NCBI GenBank assembly: GCA_937873305.1
Contig: CALMOM010000158.1
Span: forward strand, 1 to 37,180
Reading direction: 5' to 3'
DNA: 37,180 nt
From: an uncultured Terriglobus sp.
GTDB lineage: Bacteria; Acidobacteriota; Terriglobia; Terriglobales; Acidobacteriaceae
Below are positions 1 through 29,580 of the stretch, one piece after another. Below the pieces are notes generated by a model. It saw nothing but the letters and a program-made list of their open reading frames with translations. It was not told the origin of the DNA and did no database searches. How positions within the stretch are numbered: the first letter of the stretch is position 1; each line of letters opens with the position of its first letter. Made by a program: the position numbers and the translations under genes.

Positions 1-1275
1 GTGCAGGCGAAGGCGATTCCGCCCGCCATGGAAGGCCGCGACATCCTGGCCACTGCTGCAACCGGCACTGGCAAAACGCTCTCGTTCCTGATCCCTATGA
101 TTGACTACATGGACAACACGCCCGCGCCGCCCCCTGGGCCGCCCGGCAAGCGCCAGGTGAAGCCCATCCGCTCACTCATCCTGCGGCCCACGCGAGAGCT
201 GCCCATGCAGGTGCTCTAGGCCTACGGCAAGATTGTGCCCAACGCCAAGGGCGACGCCGTGCTGGTATGCGGCGGCTTGTCGGAGGGTGCTCAGCTTGAA
301 GCGTTGCGCCGCGGACCCCGTCTTGTTGTAGCCACGCCTGGCCGGCTTGAGGACTACCTGAAGCGCGGCGAAATCAGCCTGCGCAACGTGGAAACCCTGG
401 TGCTGGACGAAGTGGACCGCATGCTGGACATGGGCTTCCTGCCCGCGATCCGCCGCATCGTGGGTGCCCTGCCGCGCGACCGCCAGACCATGTGCTACTC
501 CGCCACGCTGGACGCCAACATCACCGAGATTGTGCGTGATTACGTGCACCAGCCGGTGCGCATCGAAATCGGCACCACCAGCAAGCCCAATGAGCGCGTG
601 GAGTTACGTGCGTACACCGTGATGCAGGACCAGAAGCTTTCGCTGCTGGAAAAGCTGCTGGCGGAGGGTGAGGGTACGTACCTTGTCTTCTCGCGGACCA
701 AGCACGGTGCGGACCGCTTGGCTCGCAAGCTGGAAAAGCTGGGTCATGTGACCTCGGTGATCCACGGTGACCGCTCGCAGTCGCAGCGTACCGCGGCGCT
801 CAAAACGTTTGCCACGGGCAAGAGCCGCATCCTGGTGGCGACGGACGTGGCCGCGCGCGGAATCGACATCTCGCACATTGCGCACGTGGTGAACTACGAC
901 CTGCCGGGCGCGAGCGACGACTTCGTCCACCGCATTGGCCGCACGGGCCGCGCTGAGAAGACCGGCGTTGCCACCACGTTTGTCATGCCGCAGGAGCGCA
1001 ACGACGCCCGCAAGATGGAGCGCGACCTGAAGATCAAGTTCCAGTGGTTTGAGGCAGACAAGAACCTGAAGAAGGAGGAGCGCAACGCTCCGCTGGACAC
1101 GGGCGCTTCGAACGACTTGCTGCAGCTTGAGACACGCTCCTGGAAGACGGGCGGCGGTGACAGCGCGCAGCCAGCTGCGCCCACCGGACGACCGGCCGGT
1201 GCAGGTCAGCGTCGTCGCAGAAGTGGTGGCGGTGGCGGTGGTAGTCGCTCGGGCCGTTCGCGCGCCGGACGGTAG
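1..1275 (+). pseudogene. DEAD-box RNA helicase (RhlE-like), 5'-truncated by the window and interrupted by an in-frame TAG
   Basis: ATP-dependent RNA helicase of superfamily 2, expected to remodel RNA in the cytoplasm. The frame is already open at base 1, just inside the Q motif (VQAKAIP), so the true start lies outside the window. Visible motifs in order are ATGTGKT (I), PTRELP (Ia, normally PTRELA), TPGR (Ib), DEVD (II, normally DEAD), SAT (III), ATDVAARGID (V) and HRIGRTGR (VI), then a basic Gly/Arg/Ser-rich tail typical of RhlE-like proteins. A TAG at 217-219 stops the frame straight after motif Ia and the same frame resumes. A GTG at 235 could restart translation, but that product would lack the Q motif and the ATP-binding P-loop. 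Homologues usually have glutamate at the stop position (MQVLEAYGK), so one GAG-to-TAG change explains the break. It could be a decaying gene or a sequence error. The family assignment is firm, the functional status is not. Confidence 0.85.
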
Positions 1276-28092: not shown

Positions 28093-29580
28093 TTACCGGC
28101 GCTTCCAGGTCACGCCAGCTTTGCCGTCTTCAATGAGCACGCCCTTTTCGGCAAGCTCGTTGCGGATGGCGTCGCCACGCGCAAAATTACGGCGCTTGCG
28201 GGCGTCGGTCCGCTCCGCGATCAAAGCCTCGATTTCCTGGTCGGAAATACTCTGCGATACCAGCAGGTCCGGCGCGATGTCGGTGCGGCCTTCGGCCTTT
28301 GCCCACGCCACGGCGGCTTTGCTCACATCGGCGTCGCGGTCGGTCAGGACGTCGAAGACGGCGTCTAACGCTTGCAATAGTTTCTGCACGCGCGCAATGT
28401 TGCCGCGTCCAAACGTGCCATGGTCCAGTGCGATGTTGGCCGCACGCACCACATCGAACACGGCGGCGCGTGCCTCCGCGGTGTTTAGGTCATTGTCGAG
28501 CGCGGCCCCGTACGCGGTCAGCTTTTCTGCTACCAGTGCATCCAGGTCCGCGTTCAGCGCTGCAGGCAAAGCCAAGGTGCCGCCTGCAGCTTCCACGCGC
28601 CGGGCAAACGTGCGCAGGCGCTCGATGGCGTTCGCGCTCTCCGTCAGCCCTTCGAAGGTGAAGTTCATCTGGTGCCGGTAGGGCACGCTGACCAGCAGAA
28701 AGCGGATGGCCGAGGCGCGGTAGCCCTTCAGCAAGAGGTCGCGAAGGGTATAGAAGTTGCCCTCCGACTTCGACATCTTCTTGCCTTCCACCAGCAGAAA
28801 GCGCACATGGAACCAGTGCCGCGCAAACGGCACGTGGCTGGCGCACTCACTCTGCGCAATCTCGTTTTCATGGTGCGGGAAGGCGAGGTCTTCGCCGCCG
28901 CCGTGCAGGTCGAAGCTCGGACCCAGATGCTTCATGGCCATGGCGGAGCACTCAATGTGCCAGCCCGGGCGGCCCGTGCCCAGCGGCGTATCCCAGGCGT
29001 GCTCGCCCGGCTTCACGGCCTTCCACAGGGCGAAGTCGCGCTTCGCGTCCTTCTCGTATTCGTCCACATCGACGCGTGCGCCGTCCTCGATGCCCTCCAG
29101 GTCCTTGCCGCTGAGCTTGCCGTAGTCCGGGAACTTTGCGATACGAAAGTACCAGGAGCCGTCGTCGACCTTGTAAGCGATGTCCTCCGAAGCCAGCCGC
29201 TCAATGAGCGCCACCATCTCGCCGATGGTCTCCGTCGCGCGGGCGATGATCTCTGGCCGCTCCACGCGCAGGGCGTCCATGTCTTAGAAAAAGGCGCGCT
29301 CGTACTTGGCGGTGTACTCGCCGATGGGCAGATTGGCGGCGCTAGCGTTGCGGATGATCTTATCGTCGACGTCCGTGATGTTCATCACGTGCTTGAGGCT
29401 GAAGCCCTTTAGGCGGGCGGTGCGGCGCAACACGTCCATGTGCAGAAAGGTGCGGAAGTTGCCGATGTGGCCGTAATCGTAGACCGTGGGGCCGCAGCAG
29501 TACATGCGCAGCGTGTTGTTCTCTGACGCAGACAGGGGCTCCACACGGCTACCCAGGGTGTTGAAGAGTTCGATCGCCAT
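28093..29580 (-). pseudogene. cysS: Cysteinyl-tRNA synthetase, interrupted by one in-frame TAA
   Basis: Charges tRNA-Cys; essential in most bacteria. Read through, the frame is 496 codons. It begins at ATG 29580 (MAIELFNTLG) and keeps every hallmark: zinc ligand Cys28 in YCCGPTVYDY, HIGN at 38-41, TDVDDKIIRNA, GWHIECSAM, HGGGEDLAFPHHENE and KMSKS at about 268-272. The single defect is TAA at 29284-29286 (codon 99), right after ERAFF. The same frame continues with GAC and an ATG at 29278-29280, giving an N-terminal piece of 98 residues and a C-terminal piece of 395. Homologues usually have glutamate or aspartate there (FFEDMDAL), so one GAA-to-TAA change suffices. No good ribosome-binding site precedes the second ATG. 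A sequencing error, a recent mutation, read-through or a genuinely split enzyme remain possible. It starts 111 bases after the tsaD stop. Confidence 0.85.

Follow-up and report, generated by a model that had tools for sequence, protein, structure and literature searches.

The in-frame stop in the cysteinyl-tRNA synthetase gene of a draft Terriglobus genome is probably an assembly error

The cysS gene found in the draft genome of an uncultured Terriglobus sp. (GCA_937873305.1) is interrupted by an in-frame TAA that, we infer, is probably a sequencing or assembly (consensus) error at this base and that most likely does not correspond to a new kind of split enzyme. The window analysed here is an entire contig of 37,180 nt (C158, CALMOM010000158.1) and the draft to which it belongs comprises 3.64 Mb in 223 contigs, with a completeness of 93.8%. 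The location of the gene, of its interruption and of other stop-interrupted genes of the same genome is given in Table 1.

Table 1. Features of the interrupted cysS gene and of other genes broken by single stops. Plain positions refer to the window; those with an L handle are from the same genome.
Feature	Position	Strand	Description	Basis
cysS, cysteinyl-tRNA synthetase	28093..29580	-	495 codons plus terminal TAA; one in-frame interruption	translation, TIGR00435, Pfam
In-frame TAA	29284..29286	-	codon 99 of cysS; Glu codon in closest relatives	translation, alignment
ATG	29278..29280	-	codon 101 of cysS; sense Met (shared with several relatives), not a new start	alignment
HIGN signature	29458..29469	-	residues 38-41, upstream of the stop	read directly from translation
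KMSKS signature	28765..28779	-	residues 268-272, downstream of the stop	read directly from translation
TAG in DEAD-box RNA helicase	217..219	+	gene truncated by contig start; 14 relatives encode Glu or Asp here	
pckG	L173:11392		single stop	
Aminotransferase	L188:12625		single stop	
GFO/IDH oxidoreductase	L163:6903		single stop	
OsmC protein	L156:15669		single stop	
rnhB	L159:4474		single stop	
TonB receptor	L163:19000		single stop, judged by eye; probably a further stop-broken gene	

Translation of positions 29580 to 28093 bears out the interruption reported in a preliminary description of this DNA, the codons around it reading ...GCC TTT TTC TAA GAC ATG GAC... on the minus strand. This leaves two open pieces, one of 98 codons starting with the ATG at 29580 and one of 395 codons starting with the ATG at 29280, as had been described. 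In all other respects the gene resembles an ordinary bacterial cysS: its full-length match to TIGR00435 scores 455.7 bits (curated cut-off, 340) and spans profile positions 2-465 of 466 with one stop inside, the PF01406 catalytic domain extends over residues 18-315 without a break at the stop, and the DALR_2 and CysS_C domains are also matched. The two class I signatures are present on either side of the stop, in line with the earlier statement that the catalytic motifs are intact, and the translation, read by eye, further contains C29, C211, H236 and E240, which lie at the expected motifs and, by analogy with the E. coli enzyme, may be the active-site zinc ligands. What sets the gene apart from bacterial cysS is the TAA itself, since the frame of a CysRS is otherwise uninterrupted. 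By similarity the window belongs to the Acidobacteriaceae, its best named matches being in Granulicella, Acidobacterium and an Acidobacteriaceae isolate. The cysS gene adjoins tsaD, an arrangement shared with the closest relative. Describing the gene as otherwise perfect was slightly generous; the frame is intact apart from the stop but residues 180, 405 and 495 depart from columns that are invariant in 12 relatives. None of these lies near the stop, and the relatives' own departures from such columns are similar in number.

Comparison with more than 100 aligned relatives indicated that the position of codon 99 is mostly occupied by Glu, but also by Ala, Lys, Thr or Gln, with GAA or GAG as the codon in the nearest relatives. 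The closest of these, a congener (G004) with a 94% identical cysS product and the same arrangement of neighbouring genes, carries a Glu codon there and has no stop. The Glu codon expected in the preliminary description is confirmed by the closest relative and by others, and the change relative to them is G to T, as proposed there. Internal stops were found in none of the relatives with a full-length cysS match, and in the wider cysS alignment no relative is interrupted at this position. A different defect was seen in a distant relative (G051:C30, about 151568; L298), in which a one-base frameshift disrupts cysS beside the WHIECSAM motif; this is probably a sequence error as well.

The resumption of the frame with GAC ATG, together with the conservation of both pieces, could suggest a naturally split synthetase in which re-initiation at this ATG would yield pieces of 98 and 395 residues that assemble into an active enzyme. 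This is very unlikely. The relatives, including the one that is 94% identical, are unsplit at codon 99, and the ATG is an ancestral codon that specifies the usual Met of EDMDAL, a motif residue common to several relatives. Because this Met was already there, the closeness of stop and ATG, correctly noted before, is inherited and has nothing special about it. Moreover, the cut would fall inside the catalytic domain and would separate HIGN from KMSKS, and the ATG is preceded by TAAGAC, with no strong Shine-Dalgarno sequence recognizable by eye, even though a loose scripted flag for a start with such a sequence was positive. A split aminoacyl-tRNA synthetase does exist in Aquifex aeolicus, in the form of the alpha and beta subunits of LeuRS. 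The present case would be similar in that two polypeptides would derive from one synthetase; it differs in that no sister lineage is split and in that the cut is located within the catalytic fold.

Support for a consensus error comes mainly from a wider sample of the genome. The TAG of the helicase on this contig gave the first hint, and the sample was searched for stops flanked on either side by a strong coding signal in the same frame, all candidates being compared with Pfam with the stop written as X. The sample consisted of 715 kb of this genome and of 800 kb of controls, namely 400 kb from a single-contig congener (G003) and 400 kb from a good draft of another congener (G006). Of the 49 candidates from this genome, 6 have a domain that runs across the stop, against none of the 47 from the two controls, which is the excess expected of pseudogenes that arise from assembly errors. 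The counts are small, and at equal rates a 6:0 distribution would occur with a probability of (715/1515)^6 = 0.011, or 0.023 when cysS, which prompted the scan, is set aside. Besides cysS, the genes concerned encode the DEAD-box helicase, pckG, an aminotransferase (the stop lying close to the edge of the domain), an OsmC protein and a GFO/IDH oxidoreductase. In a seventh gene, rnhB, the stop is located at the domain edge, at a codon for Gly in the aligned relatives. The OsmC orthologue of another congener (G005; L301) is likewise broken, and the OsmC stop in the present genome could thus be real decay.

Two of these genes have additional anomalies: within 12 residues of their stops, the helicase and pckG each show two other changes at columns that are otherwise invariant (P = 0.021 and 0.025, respectively), those of the helicase being residues 62 and 68, just upstream of the TAG. 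Such clustering of a stop with odd residues suits a local consensus error. Relative to the related sequences, the changes are of mixed types, with G to T in cysS, the helicase and the aminotransferase and others in pckG and the GFO/IDH gene; an oxidative G-to-T signature behind all stops was considered on this ground and found unsupported.

An excess of internal stops has been described as a mark of low-coverage or poor assemblies (Cooley and Wright 2024, PMC11017572), and little else was found in the literature on split CysRS or on stop errors in metagenomes. The genes detected here resemble the spurious pseudogenes of that study in being conserved, intact apart from single stops, and in excess over better-assembled relatives. 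The two analyses differ in that near-identical assemblies and reassembled reads were compared in the paper, and the assembled sequence alone here. Part of the excess could nonetheless be true gene decay, as the controls are other species with better assemblies. Two further observations count against an error in cysS itself, in which the stop is isolated, with no odd change nearby and none of the clustering seen in the helicase and pckG, and is located in the middle of the contig rather than at its end. Overall, the finding that conserved genes of this draft carry single stops in excess favours the error among the three options raised in the preliminary description (assembly error, fresh nonsense mutation, natural split), of which the split gained no support from the uninterrupted relatives and the ancestral ATG.

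That cysS is a single-copy and normally essential gene also argues for an error. Searches with the TIGR00435 and PF01406 profiles detected no second cysS in the assembled genome, the remaining TIGR00435 hits being weak, incomplete matches to different long open frames that are probably other class I synthetases. A SepRS route to Cys-tRNA was not found in the assembled genome either, and none of the tRNAs recovered from the assembled part of this incomplete genome has a stop-reading anticodon. The backup invoked earlier to accompany a nonsense mutation, either a second cysS or suppression, was therefore not encountered in what has been assembled. Two different tRNA-Cys(GCA) genes (L138:1501-1576 and L139:1498-1572) occur beside the one cysS.

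A real and very recent nonsense mutation in the sampled cells ranks second among the explanations and is considered rather unlikely. It would imply that the variant belonged to a doomed or minority subpopulation, or that its effect was hidden by another cysS copy or by a suppressor encoded outside the assembled sequence. One base change from a Glu codon would be enough to create it, and some genes are indeed missing from the assembly, as shown by its completeness and by the absence of tRNA-Asp and tRNA-Ile from the set recovered. Against it stand the single-copy and normally essential nature of the enzyme, the lack of a second cysS, suppressor tRNA or SepRS in the assembled part, and the other broken conserved genes, which would need a separate cause.

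Selection on the gene does not separate a mutation from an error. When compared to G004, dN/dS amounts to 0.013/0.425 (0.03) for residues 1-98 and to 0.046/0.667 (0.07) for residues 100-495, so that strong purifying selection acts on both sides of the stop and cysS has been selected as one unit until now or very recently. These values rule out an old pseudogene, and they fit a sequence error and a fresh mutation alike.

A full-length enzyme made by translational readthrough or by suppression at the TAA is very unlikely. The position is a tolerant one, as illustrated by the occurrence of E, A, K, T or Q in relatives, and almost any inserted residue would work. On the other hand, no tRNA able to read a stop was found, and the RNA downstream of the stop displays no unusual fold (z -0.71). 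TAA is also a working stop in this organism, ending cysS itself and 105 of 429 long frames (about a quarter) in the sampled genome, which rules out its reassignment. Finally, all three stop codons (TAA, TAG and TGA) are represented among the broken genes, and none of them has thus been singled out for recoding. Taken as the sole source of Cys-tRNA in one Acidobacteriaceae strain, a newly arisen but working two-piece CysRS or an efficient readthrough of TAA can be given hardly any credence.

The consensus error would thus amount to one wrong base in a draft that is probably metagenome-derived or of low coverage, creating a TAA within an ordinary single-copy cysS. The gene carried by living cells would then encode a normal cysteinyl-tRNA synthetase of 495 residues that charges tRNA-Cys as usual. 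The occurrence of several single stops in conserved genes serves as a warning that gene losses or splits deduced from this draft need checks at the level of reads. Were the TAA genuine, this would be a rare instance of a stop disrupting the catalytic domain of a synthetase that is both essential and present in one copy.
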